Shown piece by piece: positions 36,991 to 64,000 of a stretch of DNA of 64,000 nt. The position numbers and the translations under genes were made by a program. The DNA comes from Planktotalea frisia (GTDB taxonomy: Bacteria > Pseudomonadota > Alphaproteobacteria > Rhodobacterales > Rhodobacteraceae). The notes below the pieces were generated by a model, which did no database searches, had not been told where the DNA came from, and saw only the letters and a list, made by a program, of their open reading frames with translations. The stretch spans positions 1-64,000 of the forward strand of contig NZ_MLCB01000126.1 in assembly GCF_001890925.1 (NCBI RefSeq), written 5' to 3'. How positions within the stretch are numbered: position 1 is the first letter of the stretch; each line of letters begins with the position of its first letter.

Positions 36991-37335
36991 TTAAGTTTGT
37001 TTCGGAAGGAAAGCTTCGACGGCAGCGGTGGCGATGACGATCGTGTCGCCAGTGTCTGGGTTGGTGACATTGAGGCCGCCGTGGGTGGCAGTGATCGTCG
37101 TGGTGCCGCGTGGGAGCTTGTCTTTGAGAGCGTCGGTGTCGAGCTTGTCAGGTTCTTGTACACCAATGGTAACTTGTACGCGCATGTCGGTGTGAGGGAT
37201 GCCGCGCGCCGCGAGCATGGGGATGGAGGAGTGGCGGATCGCATCCTCGATCGCGCGGGCGGCGGCTTTGGTGTAGTCCATCCCGTATTGATCGTTGCCG
37301 GAACCCATTTCGATGATGAAGCGTTGATCGGTCAT
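36991..37335 (-). CDS. Lin0512-family protein, second of a pair
   Basis: A 114-residue protein of the Lin0512 family, unknown in function. FIIEMGSGNDQYGMDYTKAA opens the fold, and the VQVTIGVQEPDKLDTDALKD block is the family's most conserved part. No catalytic motif, signal or membrane helix is apparent. It overlaps its paralogue by 4 bases; both have the same length and align throughout, which suggests a hetero-oligomer. Confidence 0.8.
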   Translation of the reverse strand: MTDQRFIIEMGSGNDQYGMDYTKAAARAIEDAIRHSSIPMLAARGIPHTDMRVQVTIGVQEPDKLDTDALKDKLPRGTTTITATHGGLNVTNPDTGDTIVIATAAVEAFLPKQT

Positions 37336-37676
37336 GTGGCTGGCTCCAAATCGAGAGACACGTTGATCGCGACAGTGGCGATGACGGTCGGGTTGCCATC
37401 AGGGCGCGGCACATCAAGGCCGCCTTTGGTCACGTTGATAGAGATTTGACCATATGGAAAGATGTCTTTGAGCGCGTCTGTGTCGAGTTGCTCGGGCTGT
37501 TGCACGCCCACTTCTACATCAATTAGCATCGCTTCTTTTTCTTTGCCGAAGAGTTCCGCGAGGTTGATGGAATTGTGCCAAAGCGCATCTTGGAGGGCTC
37601 GGCGCGCAGCTTGGGTATAGTCTTGCCGACGCAGAGATGCGCCTTGGCCGAATTCAGTGAGGAGGCGTTGTTTCAT
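37332..37676 (-). CDS. Lin0512-family protein, first of a pair
   Basis: A 114-residue paralogue of the gene that follows it. RRQDYTQAARRALQDALWHN and VEVGVQQPEQLDTDALKDIF match the same blocks of the partner. AAGGA supports ATG 37676; the frame is open to 37781 but that part lies inside the zntB-like gene. It follows the zntB-like gene by 14 bases, so all three probably form one operon. Function unknown. Confidence 0.8.
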   Translation of the reverse strand: MKQRLLTEFGQGASLRRQDYTQAARRALQDALWHNSINLAELFGKEKEAMLIDVEVGVQQPEQLDTDALKDIFPYGQISINVTKGGLDVPRPDGNPTVIATVAINVSLDLEPAT

Positions 37677-37690
37677 CGTATCATCCTTGT

Positions 37691-38644
37691 TCAGAGCCAG
37701 CCGCGCCAGCGAAAGACGGCGTAAAGTGCGATACCAATCGCGGTGGATAGTGCTGTGAGGGCCGCGAAAGCCCAGATCCATTCTGTCCCTGGCATGCCCG
37801 CGACGTTCACGCCGAACAGGCCGGTTAAAAACCCGAGCGGCAGGAAGATCGCGGCCATAACCGAGAGCACGTAGCTGTTACGCCCAAGGGTCATCGCGCT
37901 GTGGGCATCGACGTGTTCTTGGATCGCCATCAGCCTGTCGCGGGATGCATCTAACGCCTCGACCGTGCGCGCGGTTCTGTTGGCGGCTTCGCGCAGGTGG
38001 TTTGAATGCGTGGCCTGCAATATGCCTGTCACATCCGTGGCGAGACGTTCGACTGCCTCGCGTTGTGGCCCAACAAATCGGCGTAGTTTGATGATAGATT
38101 GGCGCAGAGCGAGGCACTCTTTTGACGTGTTTTGATCCGCGTTGAGCGAGCTTTCCTCAAGCGCGTCCACCATTTCCTCGAACTGTAGCGAGACCACTTC
38201 GATCCTGTGGCATAATCCATCGACTAACGCTGACAGGAAGGCCGCGGGTGATGCGGGGGCTGTGCCCTTTTCGGCCTGTTGGCGCAGCGCGTCGAGCGCC
38301 ATCAAGCGACGTTTGCGCACAGTGATTATCTGCGTTGGCGTCACCCACAAACGTAGAGACACCATGTCCTCTGGGTCCGCGTCAGGGTTCAAATTGACGC
38401 CCCTTAACGTGACAATCAAACCCTCGTCGAACGCATCAACCCTCGGGCGCGTTTCGGCGGCAAGTAGGGCTTTGGCGATCAATGGATCAACTTGGGTTGT
38501 GAGCCAGTCTGCGAGATGGGGGTCTGCCAGATCAAAGTGCGTCCAGCGCCAACAACGCTTAGACGCGCGCGCCGAAAGGTCGATAGCCTGCGCGGAGCCG
38601 TCGGGGTCGATATCAAACGCAGCTATGGGTATGGGGGGTGGCAT
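37691..38644 (-). CDS. zntB: CorA-superfamily metal transporter, ZntB-like
   Basis: A 317-residue protein with a large cytosolic N-terminal domain and two C-terminal membrane helices. The loop between them reads GVNVAGMPG, close to the ZntB form (GVNVGGIPG) rather than the GMN of CorA. ZntB moves Zn2+, probably with protons. It is divergent from the DUF4062 gene by 52 bases and precedes the two Lin0512 genes. Direction of transport cannot be read from sequence. Confidence 0.85.
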   Translation of the reverse strand: MPPPIPIAAFDIDPDGSAQAIDLSARASKRCWRWTHFDLADPHLADWLTTQVDPLIAKALLAAETRPRVDAFDEGLIVTLRGVNLNPDADPEDMVSLRLWVTPTQIITVRKRRLMALDALRQQAEKGTAPASPAAFLSALVDGLCHRIEVVSLQFEEMVDALEESSLNADQNTSKECLALRQSIIKLRRFVGPQREAVERLATDVTGILQATHSNHLREAANRTARTVEALDASRDRLMAIQEHVDAHSAMTLGRNSYVLSVMAAIFLPLGFLTGLFGVNVAGMPGTEWIWAFAALTALSTAIGIALYAVFRWRGWL

Positions 38645-38696: not shown

Positions 38697-39629
38697 ATGC
38701 GTTTGAGGGCAAGTGATTTGGAAAAGCGGTATCAGGTTTTTATCAGTTCGACGTTTCAGGATTTGCAGGGCGCGCGCCAAGAGGTGTCGCAGGCTTTGCT
38801 GAGGGCGGATTGCTTTCCCGCTGGGATGGAGCTGTTTCCGGCTGCGGATGAAGAGCAGTTCGAGTTCATCAAGACGGTGATTGATCAGTCGGATTACTAC
38901 ATTTTGATATCCGCTGGGCGCTATGGCTCGATCCATCCTGACACGGGGTTGAGCTATACGGAGATGGAGTATGACTATGCGGTGGAGACGGGCAAGCCTG
39001 TTATTCGGTTGCTGCATAAGGATCCGTTCAATGAGTTGAAAGGGGAGTTTATTGAGCAGACGGATGTCGGGCGGGAAAAGCTAGAAGCGTTTCGCACAAA
39101 GTTGATGAAGGGCAAATTGGTCAAATTTTGGACTTCGCCGCAAGACATTTTGATAGAAACGGTATTTGCATTGCAAGATGCGCAACGAAGGTTTCCAAAA
39201 GATGGTTGGGTTCGAGGCGATAAAGTAATGAACAGTCAGACTCTTAAGGAACTAGAAACTCTACGTGGAAAGGTGAGCAATGCAGAGAAGGAATCATCAA
39301 ATCCATCGAATATTCTAGAGAAAAAAATAAAAGCTCCAGTGACAATAGGTTTGTTGAAAAAGCTTTCTGGCGAAATCGAACGCAACATTGAATTGGTTGA
39401 TTTGCTGGTAGCTTTGAAGAATAGTTCTGATGACGACGATGATTTGAGAAAATCAGACATAGCTTCGATTGCAGGTAAGTTAAAAATAAATTCCAATGTT
39501 GCAACAATTATGCTGAATGCGTGCGCTTTAGACGGTCTGGTTTCTGAAGGCAGCACCTATTTCTCTTCAACATCAAAGTTTAAAGATGCTTTCCAAGCCG
39601 CGACTGTTTTGAAGGCGTTAAATACTTAA
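38697..39629 (+). CDS. DUF4062 protein with AT-rich C-terminal half
   Basis: A 310-residue protein. The N-terminal DUF4062 domain spans roughly residues 10-160, opening with KRYQVFISSTFQDLQ, including FIKTVIDQSDYYILISAGRY and EMEYDYAVETGKPVIRL; this domain has a TIR-like fold and often precedes signalling ATPases in other proteins. A likely coiled coil covers residues 180-205. Residues 240-290 (SDIASIAGKLKINSNVATIM) look like a winged helix. The 3' part from about 39190 is strikingly AT-rich. ATG 38697 has no good ribosome site; TTG 38718, with GAGG upstream, is a credible alternative. Its stop overlaps the convergent cobO stop. Function unknown. Confidence 0.8.
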   Translation: MRLRASDLEKRYQVFISSTFQDLQGARQEVSQALLRADCFPAGMELFPAADEEQFEFIKTVIDQSDYYILISAGRYGSIHPDTGLSYTEMEYDYAVETGKPVIRLLHKDPFNELKGEFIEQTDVGREKLEAFRTKLMKGKLVKFWTSPQDILIETVFALQDAQRRFPKDGWVRGDKVMNSQTLKELETLRGKVSNAEKESSNPSNILEKKIKAPVTIGLLKKLSGEIERNIELVDLLVALKNSSDDDDDLRKSDIASIAGKLKINSNVATIMLNACALDGLVSEGSTYFSSTSKFKDAFQAATVLKALNT

Positions 39630-40234
39630 AACTCCACCCCAATCTGCGCCTTAACCCCTGATCTGAACGGATGCTTCACCAGCTCCATCTCTGTCACCAG
39701 ATCGGCAATCTCGATCAAGTCATCCTTCGCATTGCGGCCTGTCATCACAACGTGGGTCATCGGTGGTTTCTCTTCCACCAAGAACGTCACCACGTCGTTC
39801 ACGTCGATATAATCATAGCGTAGTGCGATGTTGATCTCGTCGAGTAACACCATTTTGTTGCTCTCGTCGCGGATCAGCTCTTTGGCTTTTTCCCAAGCGG
39901 CCTGCGCCATTTCGGTGTCCCGATCGCGGTCTTGGGTTTCCCATGTGAACCCTTCGCCCATCGTGTGGAACGAGCAAATGTCGGAAAATTTGCCAAGGAT
40001 CAGATCACGCTCGCCCGTGCTCATCCCGCCCTTGATGAACTGCACCACGGCGCATTGCATGTCATGGGCGATGTGGCGGAAGATCATCCCGAAGGCGGCT
40101 GAACTTTTGCCCTTACCTTTACCCGTATGAATGACGATCAGACCTTTTTCATCGGTCTTGGTGGCCATGATTTTGTCGCGTGCGGCCTTCTTCTTGGCCA
40201 TCTTCATCGCGTGACGTTCGCTATCAGCACTCAT
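39626..40234 (-). CDS. cobO: cob(I)yrinic acid a,c-diamide adenosyltransferase
   Basis: A 202-residue CobA/CobO-type enzyme that attaches the adenosyl group to the cobalt of corrinoids. HTGKGKGKSSAAFG is the P-loop, and MVLLDEINIALRYDYI carries the family's second conserved block. It is downstream of cobN and an EEP-domain lipoprotein gene in the same direction. Length is normal for the family. Confidence 0.94.
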   Translation of the reverse strand: MSADSERHAMKMAKKKAARDKIMATKTDEKGLIVIHTGKGKGKSSAAFGMIFRHIAHDMQCAVVQFIKGGMSTGERDLILGKFSDICSFHTMGEGFTWETQDRDRDTEMAQAAWEKAKELIRDESNKMVLLDEINIALRYDYIDVNDVVTFLVEEKPPMTHVVMTGRNAKDDLIEIADLVTEMELVKHPFRSGVKAQIGVEF

Positions 40235-61398: not shown

Positions 61399-62181
61399 GT
61401 TGAGCATTTGCTCGACGTTTGCCCTGTAGCTGTTGCTTACGGGAACAGAACGCCCATCTTTGAGAGCCAGTTGGTGACGGCGATCAACACGCGACAGACT
61501 ACTTGCATGCGCGCGTGCAGCCCAGTGAGATCGGTGGGTCTGCACGCCTTCGATTCCATCGAGCAGATCAATCGCATCGCTTAGGCGCATCAGGATCATC
61601 TCACTTCCTTTAGTTGTCGTAACCTCGACGTAGTGATCCTGCATCGACATTGAGATGATTTGCCCTTCGCGTAAACGCGTGGGTAAGCGTTGTAACAATC
61701 GAGGGGTCAATAAGCTTGGGGTCTTTTCGTCGCTTTTTACTGAATTACTATCCTGCGTTTCTTGTCGCGCAGTTTGCGAGCGAGAATTGATCAAAAGCTC
61801 CAGTCCCGCGATCAGTATGCCCATAACGGTGACTTGAAACCACAGCATAGGAAATAGCGCGCCTTCTAAATGTTCGGGGCGGAAGACCTTGTTAAGCGCT
61901 ATAACAAATGAGGTGCCGGGCACACTGCCGAGCGCAGAACCAATCACGATGGTAAACAGCATTGGAACCCTTGTGAGCCATTTGCTTTCGATTGCGGCAA
62001 GGATGCAAATTTCCATAAAAATGCCGACAGTGCTGATCGCAACAGTCCAAAAGACCACACGATCCCAGAAGGATAAATCATCACCCGTGTCGAATGGACC
62101 TAGGAAAACACAGACAAAAATCGCGATGGCGAAAACGGCAATGCGCCTGTCTCTGCTGTTTTGACTTGTATTTTCACGCAT
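61381..62181 (-). CDS. LytTR-domain transcriptional regulator with membrane N-terminus
   Basis: A 266-residue protein. The first 135 residues contain about four membrane helices (e.g. IAVFAIAIFVCVFLGPF and MLWFQVTVMGILIAGLELLI). After a polar linker, residues 165-262 form a LytTR DNA-binding domain: ISMSMQDHYVEVTTTKGSEM, GIEGVQTHRSHWAAR and LKDGRSVPVSNSYR are typical. Such proteins sense a signal at the membrane and bind DNA directly without a separate kinase. The divergent region upstream holds a short ORF with its own terminator. Confidence 0.85.
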   Translation of the reverse strand: MRENTSQNSRDRRIAVFAIAIFVCVFLGPFDTGDDLSFWDRVVFWTVAISTVGIFMEICILAAIESKWLTRVPMLFTIVIGSALGSVPGTSFVIALNKVFRPEHLEGALFPMLWFQVTVMGILIAGLELLINSRSQTARQETQDSNSVKSDEKTPSLLTPRLLQRLPTRLREGQIISMSMQDHYVEVTTTKGSEMILMRLSDAIDLLDGIEGVQTHRSHWAARAHASSLSRVDRRHQLALKDGRSVPVSNSYRANVEQMLNEKGQT

Positions 62182-62260
62182 CGTGTATTTGCTTTTCTGC
62201 TGATTTCACGAAGAATCTTAACGATATACGCAGTTTGACTTCGAAGAGAGCCGAGTTGCA

Positions 62261-62323
62261 ATGATAAATGATCTCGTGAGTGAGGCAATCGGCATCCTAA
62301 CCCAACTGATTGCAGTTAACTAA
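62261..62323 (+). CDS. possible 20-residue peptide beside the LytTR regulator
   Basis: ATG 62261 opens a 20-codon frame, MINDLVSEAIGILTQLIAVN, ending at TAA 62321. GAGAG lies 10 bases upstream. The peptide is a plausible amphipathic helix. A strong plus-strand terminator begins 26 bases after the stop, and no other plus-strand gene could use it, which argues for a short transcript here. It could be a small protein, a peptide signal, or just part of a non-coding RNA. The ORF is short enough to occur by chance. Confidence 0.3.
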   Translation: MINDLVSEAIGILTQLIAVN

Positions 62324-62348
62324 AATTCCCTTTTCAAAACGTACATGG

Positions 62349-62382
62349 AGCGGTGCACTCGTTTGCACCGCTTCTTTTTTAT
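62349..62382 (+). terminator. strong intrinsic terminator with no obvious upstream gene
   Basis: A perfect 9-base stem AGCGGTGCA/TGCACCGCT (62349-62357, 62364-62372) with a 6-base loop is followed by TCTTTTTTAT. The nearest plus-strand gene upstream ends at 61347 and has its own terminator, so it should end a short transcript starting in 62182-62348. Bases 62383-62518 carry no gene and probably hold the promoter of the TPR gene. Confidence 0.82.
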
Positions 62383-62518
62383 CGCTCTGCGTGTCGCGCT
62401 CGAAAGAAATCGCAAAAACTTGAACGACTCTTTGTGTTGTTGAGACGTGCGATCATTGCTTTACCCGCATCGACGCCCTAGCTTCTTGTAAAGCAGTACA
62501 CATAAAGGAGCATCACAC

Positions 62519-64000
62519 GTGCCCATTCGCGTCTTACGGCAGATAAGTTTTGCAGCGGTTCTTGCCGTCACTGGAATTCCGCTGGTAGCTGAGCCTGCGG
62601 GGCCTTATCTCGCGGCGCGTTCTGCTGCGGTGACAGGCGATTACGATGCTGCGGCGCGCTATTATACTCAGGCTCTAGCGCGTGATCCTTCAAACCCTGA
62701 AATATTGGAAAACGCCAGCTTTGCGTTGCTCGCCCTTGGTGACATCGAACGCGCGGCGATCGTTGGTGGCACTTTGCTCGCCAACGGCCAAAGCAGCCAA
62801 GTTGCGCAAATGGCCTTGCTCGCACAGCGCGCACAGGAAGAGAATTACGCTGATGTGCTTGGACGGATTCTTGATAACCAAGGTGTTGGACCTTTGGTGG
62901 ACGGACTTTTGCGTGCTTGGGCGCAAGTCGGCATTGGCGAAGTAACAACTGCGCTTGAGAACTTTGAAAAGATTGGCGAAGAGCGCGGGCTGCAAGGCTT
63001 TGCACTTTACCACAAAGCGTTCGCTCTTGCGATGGTTGGCGATTTTGAAGGGGCGGATGAGATCTTTTCCAAACCTGAGTCAGGTGCGTTGCGTCAAACC
63101 CGTCGCGGTGCGATTGCGCATATTGAAGTGCTCAGTCAATTGGGGCGGACTGAGGATGCTTTGAAACTTCTCGACGACTCGTTTGGCCCTGACCTTGACC
63201 CGCTACTCAAGTCTATTCGCGCGAGCCTGAGTGATGGCAAGACTGTTGAATTTAGCCAGATCAAGACTGCGCGCGATGGCATGGCAGAGGTCTTTTTCAC
63301 CGTGGGCAGTGCGTTGCGTAACGAGGCGAGCGAAGATTACACGCTTCTTTATACGCGCGTCGCTGAATATTTGAACCCAATGCACAGTGATGCGACCTTG
63401 CTGTCCGCTGGTTTGCTCGAGCAGATGGAACGGTTCGAGTTGGCGACGGAAACTTACAAGAAAGTTGGTCGTGATGATCCCGCGTTTCATGCGGCAGAGC
63501 TGGGGCGCGCAGAAGCGTTGCGGCGTAGTGGGAAACCGGACGCCGCGATCGAGGTGCTCGAAAGTCTCGCGCAAACCCATGGTGAATTGGCGCTCGTGCA
63601 TTCGTCGCTCGGCGATGCGTTGCGCCAGATGGAGCGTTTTGAGGATGCGATCAAAGCGTATGATACCGCGCTAGAGCAGTATGACGAAGAAAGCCGCGGA
63701 CAATGGTTCATCTATTACGCGCGCGGGATTTCTTACGAGCGGCTTGATAACTGGGAAAATTCGGAAGCGGATTTTCGCAAAGCGTTAGAGTTGAACCCGG
63801 AGCAGCCGCAAGTTTTGAACTACCTTGGATATTCCTTGGTTGAGAAGCAAGTCAAGCTGGATGAAGCGCTAAATATGATCGAGCGCGCCGTCGCGGCACG
63901 TCCTGACAGTGGGTATATCGTCGATAGCTTGGGTTGGGTTTTGTTTCGTTTAGGTCGCTATGAAGAAGCGGTCGCACCGATGGAACGCGCGACAGAATTG
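62519..64000 (+). CDS. tetratricopeptide-repeat protein, C-terminus outside the window
   Basis: An open frame of at least 494 codons from GTG 62519, with AAGGAG 8 bases upstream, still open at the window end. Residues 5-25 form a hydrophobic signal or anchor (QISFAAVLAVTGIPLVAEPAG). TPR motifs run along the rest, e.g. GDYDAAARYYTQALARDPSN, FEDAIKAYDTALEQY, WENSEADFRKALELNPEQPQ and YEEAVAPMERATEL. Exported TPR proteins usually scaffold envelope complexes. No catalytic motif is seen. The specific partner is unknown. Confidence 0.87.
   Translation, partial: MPIRVLRQISFAAVLAVTGIPLVAEPAGPYLAARSAAVTGDYDAAARYYTQALARDPSNPEILENASFALLALGDIERAAIVGGTLLANGQSSQVAQMALLAQRAQEENYADVLGRILDNQGVGPLVDGLLRAWAQVGIGEVTTALENFEKIGEERGLQGFALYHKAFALAMVGDFEGADEIFSKPESGALRQTRRGAIAHIEVLSQLGRTEDALKLLDDSFGPDLDPLLKSIRASLSDGKTVEFSQIKTARDGMAEVFFTVGSALRNEASEDYTLLYTRVAEYLNPMHSDATLLSAGLLEQMERFELATETYKKVGRDDPAFHAAELGRAEALRRSGKPDAAIEVLESLAQTHGELALVHSSLGDALRQMERFEDAIKAYDTALEQYDEESRGQWFIYYARGISYERLDNWENSEADFRKALELNPEQPQVLNYLGYSLVEKQVKLDEALNMIERAVAARPDSGYIVDSLGWVLFRLGRYEEAVAPMERATEL

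Follow-up and report, generated by a model that had tools for sequence, protein, structure and literature searches.

A DUF4062 gene beside cobO in Planktotalea frisia joins a conserved TIR-like head to an exchanged, AT-rich C-terminal half

DUF4062 is no longer a domain of unknown function, as a May 2026 preprint (PMC13174449) describes it in its main text as a TIR-like NADase and reports a TIR/NDT kinship. According to that text, the Klebsiella pneumoniae protein "Swarozyc" (KpSwz; PDB 10wc, 11cq, 11cv) gives protection through NAD+ depletion and abortive infection; it needs E97 and an auxiliary domain (AUX), and this C-terminal helix-turn-helix/winged AUX binds the phage portal. About 20% of Swarozyc homologues lie in defence islands, a setting that is not required (PMC13174449). 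SpbK is a TIR NADase activated by the phage portal YonE (PMC12847820). Here, we analyzed a DUF4062 gene located between zntB and cobO in 64,000 nucleotides of Planktotalea frisia DNA (NZ_MLCB01000126.1, positions 1 to 64,000; hereafter the window). The gene is probably a Swarozyc-type NADase switch whose sensor is non-canonical and has been replaced. It belongs to a known kind, as a variant set apart by its sensor, its genomic setting, and the way in which it changes.

The open reading frame (ORF) was intact, comprising 310 codons at 38697-39629 on the plus strand, coordinates and strand being exact. DUF4062 (PF13271) matched residues 13-95 (E 2.5e-27; 95.3 bits versus a gathering score of 24.7), and this was the sole PF13271 match in the P. 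frisia genome, bearing out an initial annotation, made from the sequence alone, of a lone DUF4062 gene between zntB and cobO. No NCBIfam or PADLOC model matched the protein, and two unnamed phage-protein families matched its first two thirds. The closest solved structure was KpSwz (E 1.5e-49 across residues 8-193), a likeness established by sequence because KpSwz is not among the Foldseek and VIA-align rows, whose library ends in April 2026. The solved KpSwz construct is E97A, and its alanine aligned at the expected position opposite E91 of the window protein; residue 91 is glutamate in 104 of 104 aligned homologues. Structure prediction gave a confident TIR-like head (predicted local distance difference test score [pLDDT] mostly >90) and a helical stalk, with helices at 123-137, 148-165, and 180-201. 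The predicted head matched TIR domain 4c6t (E 4.1e-5), and VIA-align placed the DNPH1/MilB N-glycosidases (Z 13.7) above TIR (Z 11.8; TIR chains about 11-12), in line with the TIR/NDT kinship reported in PMC13174449. The modeled head thus has a TIR-like fold, as the initial annotation had proposed; the lack of such a fold, which it had named as evidence to the contrary, was not observed.

To designate the genomes compared, G000 is the window's genome, P0001 the window's protein, and G001-G005 are congeners, G003 being the sister species. The head differed from that of G003 by one residue in 123 (nonsynonymous divergence [dN] 0.003; synonymous divergence [dS] 0.39), and dN was 0.04-0.08 and dS 1.0-1.9 between G000 and L002-L005 and L007. 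The head is under strong purifying selection (dN/dS about 0.01 between the sister species), and heads were 88-99% identical in the relatives occupying the same slot beside cobO (L001-L007 and L010).

The 3′ half was of different character. GC content was 50.8% in codons 1-145 versus 39.4% after, and GC at third codon positions (GC3) was 65.5% versus 35.2%; the lowest 500-bp GC of the window (0.394; mean 0.549) fell within the gene, confirming the suspected AT-rich, foreign-looking 3′ half. Elsewhere in the window, a second GC dip occurred at 61851-62600 (0.45-0.47). Identity to G003 dropped from 93.2% to 47.0% after base 39066 in one step (twice the log-likelihood difference 167; shuffled maximum 16.8), and dS rose from 0.39 before this base to 1.66 after it, with flanking values of 0.86 for zntB and 0.64 for cobO. 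These steps indicate that the head and the 3′ half differ in age, so that the gene is a mosaic and not one with a fast-evolving end. Since the break lies just before helix 123-137, the last TIR-like helix, the exchanged block consists of that helix, the stalk, and the tail.

Tail exchange was then compared across lineages. Pairs were counted when their heads reached 85% identity and each tail had 50 aa or more, and two tails were called alike at blastp E<1e-3. Tails were alike in 0 of 15 slot pairs versus 55 of 55 pairs from other lineages, counts in which pairs share members and are not independent trials. When the short tails of L001, L007, L029, and L046, dropped before these counts, were included, the figures were 0 of 28 versus 59 of 64. 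Identity of the middle segment (residues 124-195) was likewise 22-43% in slot pairs versus 65-100% in other pairs with equally similar heads. The exception helps the same conclusion: the tails of L010 and L012 are related (62%), although the L010 head is 94% like those of L003 and L007 and 76% like that of L012. Tail swapping is therefore well supported. Consistent with this, GC increased in the order tail, head, flanks in all 10 slot loci measured (P0001, L001-L007, L009, and L012), and the median head-minus-tail GC3 was 0.276 in 9 slot genes versus 0.027 in 92 other homologues (Mann-Whitney p 2.6e-6, for rows that are not independent). The GC3 gap is a slot feature and not general to the DUF4062 family. 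Normal composition in all relatives at a conserved locus, which the initial annotation would have taken as contrary evidence, was thus not found, since an AT-rich tail recurs in the slot relatives.

Trees did not decide for or against the swap. In a head tree made by a quick method, the eight slot rows grouped with L008, L011, and L012 in a set of 11 (support 99), and a single slot clade was not rejected by the approximately unbiased (AU) test for either the head (p-AU 0.73) or the middle segment (p-AU 0.366), in analyses that drew on 43 proteins out of the 104. The 104-protein comparison itself left out six duplicates, L009, which has an open end, and the fragments L010 and L022. L108, L109, and L111 equal L002, L003, and L006 in the aligned part; they were left out of the pair comparison, the GC3 test, and the trees and counted among the 100 tails described below. 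L008, L011, and L012 were in neither group of the pair comparison; in the GC3 test, L012 was placed with the slot genes, and L008 and L011 with the others.

The slot beside cobO recurred in different genera of roseobacters. The DUF4062 gene and cobO were convergent on one contig in nine genomes (the window's, L002-L007, L010, and L012), and in five of these (the window, L002, L004, L005, and L012) their ends coincide to the base or fall inside a shared TTAA. The L003 gene falls 22 bp short, that of L007 stops 237 bp before cobO, that of L010 has an in-frame stop, and L006 carries a second DUF4062 gene between the slot gene and cobO; the cobO genes of L002, L004, and L005 are more distant (66-71%). 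The L009 contig ends before cobO, with the Lin0512 neighbour present. In G003, the gene begins alike beside zntB and keeps an intact head, but its frame is closed early by a stop at codon 219, and the slot is interrupted by a contig break, with cobO on a separate contig (55-bp shared contig ends). G002 and G004 hold relics only, with zntB also absent from the slot; the G005 slot is empty, and G001 gave no match. The cobO loci of a further 29 family genomes held one intact head (the L007 genome) and one relic. Matches occurred in 10 of 394 family genomes and, with the head alone, in 10 of 390 order genomes. None of the queried slot neighbours was found for L008 and L011 (heads 76% and 72%), and same-family heads of other lineages (L112-L115 and L180-L185; at most 62% identity) had no cobO in the flank examined. 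Recent insertion of the whole gene was rejected, because the head and its place on the cobO side are common to several genera. Thus, of the proposal that a transferred or chimeric gene had been dropped in here, the chimera stood and the wholesale insertion did not, exchange being confined to the part after codon 123.

Two slots showed further contents. At L104:1573-1965 (minus strand), the G002 slot, where the gene is mostly lost, carries a 130-aa antisense ORF. In L142, the same Lin0512/cobO slot is occupied by another ORF, of 241 aa, which lies about 60-780 bp past the cobO 3′ end and by eye resembles a peptidoglycan-binding protein; the slot may take other genes.

The tail itself had few relatives. 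Among 100 tails no shorter than 50 aa, 63 belonged to a single AUX family spanning phyla, and a profile of 14 of them found KpSwz residues 203-325 at E 6.6e-20. The P0001 tail did not join this family (profile E 0.88; hhalign probability 0.3%), nor did any other slot tail tested. Pfam gave nothing in the tail and the PDB nothing above noise. The last 105 aa matched, among 394 family genomes, only the window's own genome, and had no match in plasmids; with codons 124-310 as the query, only the middle segment was matched, in 6 other of 385 class genomes. A tail donor was therefore not found among these family genomes, class genomes, and plasmids. Two phage records at 27% identity and 23 viral contigs at up to 49% were recovered, none resembling the slot lineage. 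With pLDDT of about 50-60 in the full model and 48.6 when modeled alone, the tail did not bear out the probable winged helix of the initial annotation. In a separate plasmid observation, 181 records carried a DUF4062 relative; 164 of these were Staphylococcus plasmids, many of about 20.7 kb, where a Swarozyc-like gene may be common. In L006, a canonical TIR_2 domain (E 4.2e-21) takes the place of the tail; in that locus (L006:6001-6987 and about 500 bp after), the slot gene, with two NADase-type domains in one protein, is followed by a divergent DUF4062 ORF before cobO.

Compared with described systems, the window protein resembles KpSwz in its DUF4062 head with a predicted catalytic glutamate, the stalk next to it, and a compact single-gene layout without an ATPase. 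It differs in that KpSwz 203-325 belongs to the widespread AUX family, whereas the window tail has no detectable similarity to it, and in its location in a chromosomal slot beside cobO instead of a defence island. No NTPase domain of the STAND/NACHT-DUF4062 kind follows DUF4062 in this 310-aa protein, which has no second Pfam domain. The absence of the usual large ATPase, flagged in the initial annotation, is hence real, but not unusual, the compact layout being common in the bacterial sample; judged from sequence comparison, the odd feature is a tail outside the common AUX family. TEP1 and other eukaryotic DUF4062-NACHT proteins share the DUF4062 TIR-like domain but have a large ATPase and WD40 architecture (main text of PMC13174449). 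SpbK likewise combines a TIR NADase and a separate sensing part in one protein and acts by abortive infection, properties that the window protein would share by homology, but its TIR is canonical and its sensing domain is another one (PMC12847820). In the sensors of NACHT-type conflict systems diversified by diversity-generating retroelements, constant defence machinery is likewise combined with a diversified sensing part, but by point mutation through reverse transcription there and by whole-domain replacement here (PMC10907252).

By analogy with KpSwz, the window protein would be an NADase with an anti-phage role and an abortive outcome, and its tail would act as the sensor. A compact single-gene sensor or defence factor, as first suggested, thus appears to be the best reading, KpSwz being exactly that. 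In the resting cell, the TIR-like heads would be kept inactive in stalk-linked dimers; binding of a phage-made structure by the C-terminal tail would align the stalks and re-arrange the heads into an active form, and cell death or stall would precede phage release. Both edges of the exchanged block lie in conserved DNA, one in the head and one in the 3′ end of cobO. These two stretches would act as homology arms for exchange by recombination, each lineage gaining a different specificity behind the same executioner. More tentatively, and with somewhat less than even confidence, we propose a locus of constant executioner and replaceable sensor, in which cassettes (last TIR helix, stalk, and tail) behind an invariant NADase head are exchanged by homologous recombination, perhaps via gene transfer agents, leaving roseobacter populations with many trigger specificities at one allelic site. 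Gene transfer agents are carriers of exchanged DNA, and the genome has a marker for them, a GTA_TIM match at G000:C145:10075-10965 (E 1.1e-152); judged from this marker gene, they are one possible carrier of the cassettes.

Several points weigh against a Swarozyc-type switch with a swapped sensor. The activity and phage role of the window protein are extrapolated from one relative, KpSwz. Sequence comparison did not place the tail in the portal-sensing AUX family, so that the tail could respond to another trigger or be non-functional; as it was seen in one genome only, some residual chance of an assembly error persists. The middle-segment p-AU of 0.366 means that part of 124-195 could reflect fast divergence from a shared ancestor. 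Two congeners hold only relics, so that the gene is dispensable, and PADLOC on 10 neighbours returned only a weak CorA match to zntB, indicating no defence island.

Some of these points would suit a decaying chimera, in which a head without a trigger received, through recombination, a foreign tail that does not function, the gene being en route to the congener relics. We consider this unlikely. The relics in G002 and G004, the absence from G005, the stops in G003 and L010, a tail without a detectable family, and a 52-bp leader upstream of the gene with no sigma-70-like match would all fit, but the 310-codon ORF is intact and terminates exactly at cobO, the head is under strong purifying selection, and several slot members in other genera have full-length, differing tails. 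It is improbable, too, that the head works on nucleotides as an N-glycosidase, or turns NAD+ into a signal without depleting it, and that the tail senses or passes a metabolic signal and not phage, as might be read from the VIA-align ranking, the NDT similarity noted in the main text of PMC13174449, and neighbours that are B12 and metal-transport genes and not defence genes. An ordinary vertical Swarozyc gene with a very fast-evolving C-terminal half and no exchange, to which the still recognizably homologous middle segment and its unrejected slot clade lend some color, is highly doubtful and already largely refuted for G000/G003, as a four-fold rise in dS at a single base is not expected from selection-driven rate differences, the tail cannot be aligned and differs in GC3, all 55 pairs with equally similar heads in other lineages keep their tails, and the tail relative of L010 is L012 and not the lineages nearest to it in the head.

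The features of the locus are collected in Table 1. On the zntB side, the neighbours are SpoU, GNAT, SDR, GntR/FCD, two Lin0512 genes, and CorA/ZntB, and on the cobO side CobO, an Exo_endo_phos protein, and CobN. The two Lin0512-family genes overlap and are kept beside the slot in several genera.

Table 1. Features of the DUF4062 gene and its slot, in window coordinates
Feature	Codons	Coordinates	Strand	Basis or remark
Head, DUF4062/TIR-like catalytic core	1-123	38697..39065	+	Pfam, KpSwz match, confident model, 88-99% identity in slot relatives
Possible alternative start, TTG	8			Several relatives begin there
Predicted catalytic glutamate	91	38967..38969	+	KpSwz E97 equivalent
Mosaic breakpoint versus sister species G003		39066	+	Best single breakpoint; blastn similarity stops at 39066
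Last TIR-like helix/strand (alpha-E) and stalk start	124-195	39066..39281	+	Exchanged along with tail; 22-43% identity among slot members
AT-rich C-terminal tail, presumed sensor (AUX)	196-310 and stop	39282..39629	+	Unrelated in sequence to KpSwz AUX family
TTAA, overlapping stops of DUF4062 gene and convergent cobO; 3′ edge of swapped segment		39626..39629		
cobO, cob(I)alamin adenosyltransferase, conserved 3′ slot neighbour		39626..40234	-	Pfam CobA_CobO_BtuR E 1.7e-63
zntB/CorA-like transporter, 5′ neighbour		37691..38644	-	Pfam CorA E 5.1e-60
Tandem Lin0512-family genes		36991..37781	-	Pfam Lin0512_fam twice; 5′ slot neighbour in L006, L009, L010, L012, G002, G004

The executioner and its enzyme have already been described, and the cobO-slot pattern is the new part. 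It does not appear in the main text of PMC13174449, which makes no mention of recombination, swapping, Rhodobacter, or Roseo-, and no paper describing it was recognized in the literature searched, subscription journals and preprint supplements lying outside the scope. If the proposal is true, the slot would be a natural experiment in which a single chromosomal site pairs the same effector with many natural sensors, and sensor-trigger pairs would be discoverable by moving cassettes onto one head. It would also give a simple account of how a chromosomal abortive-infection gene may keep pace with phages without mobile elements.
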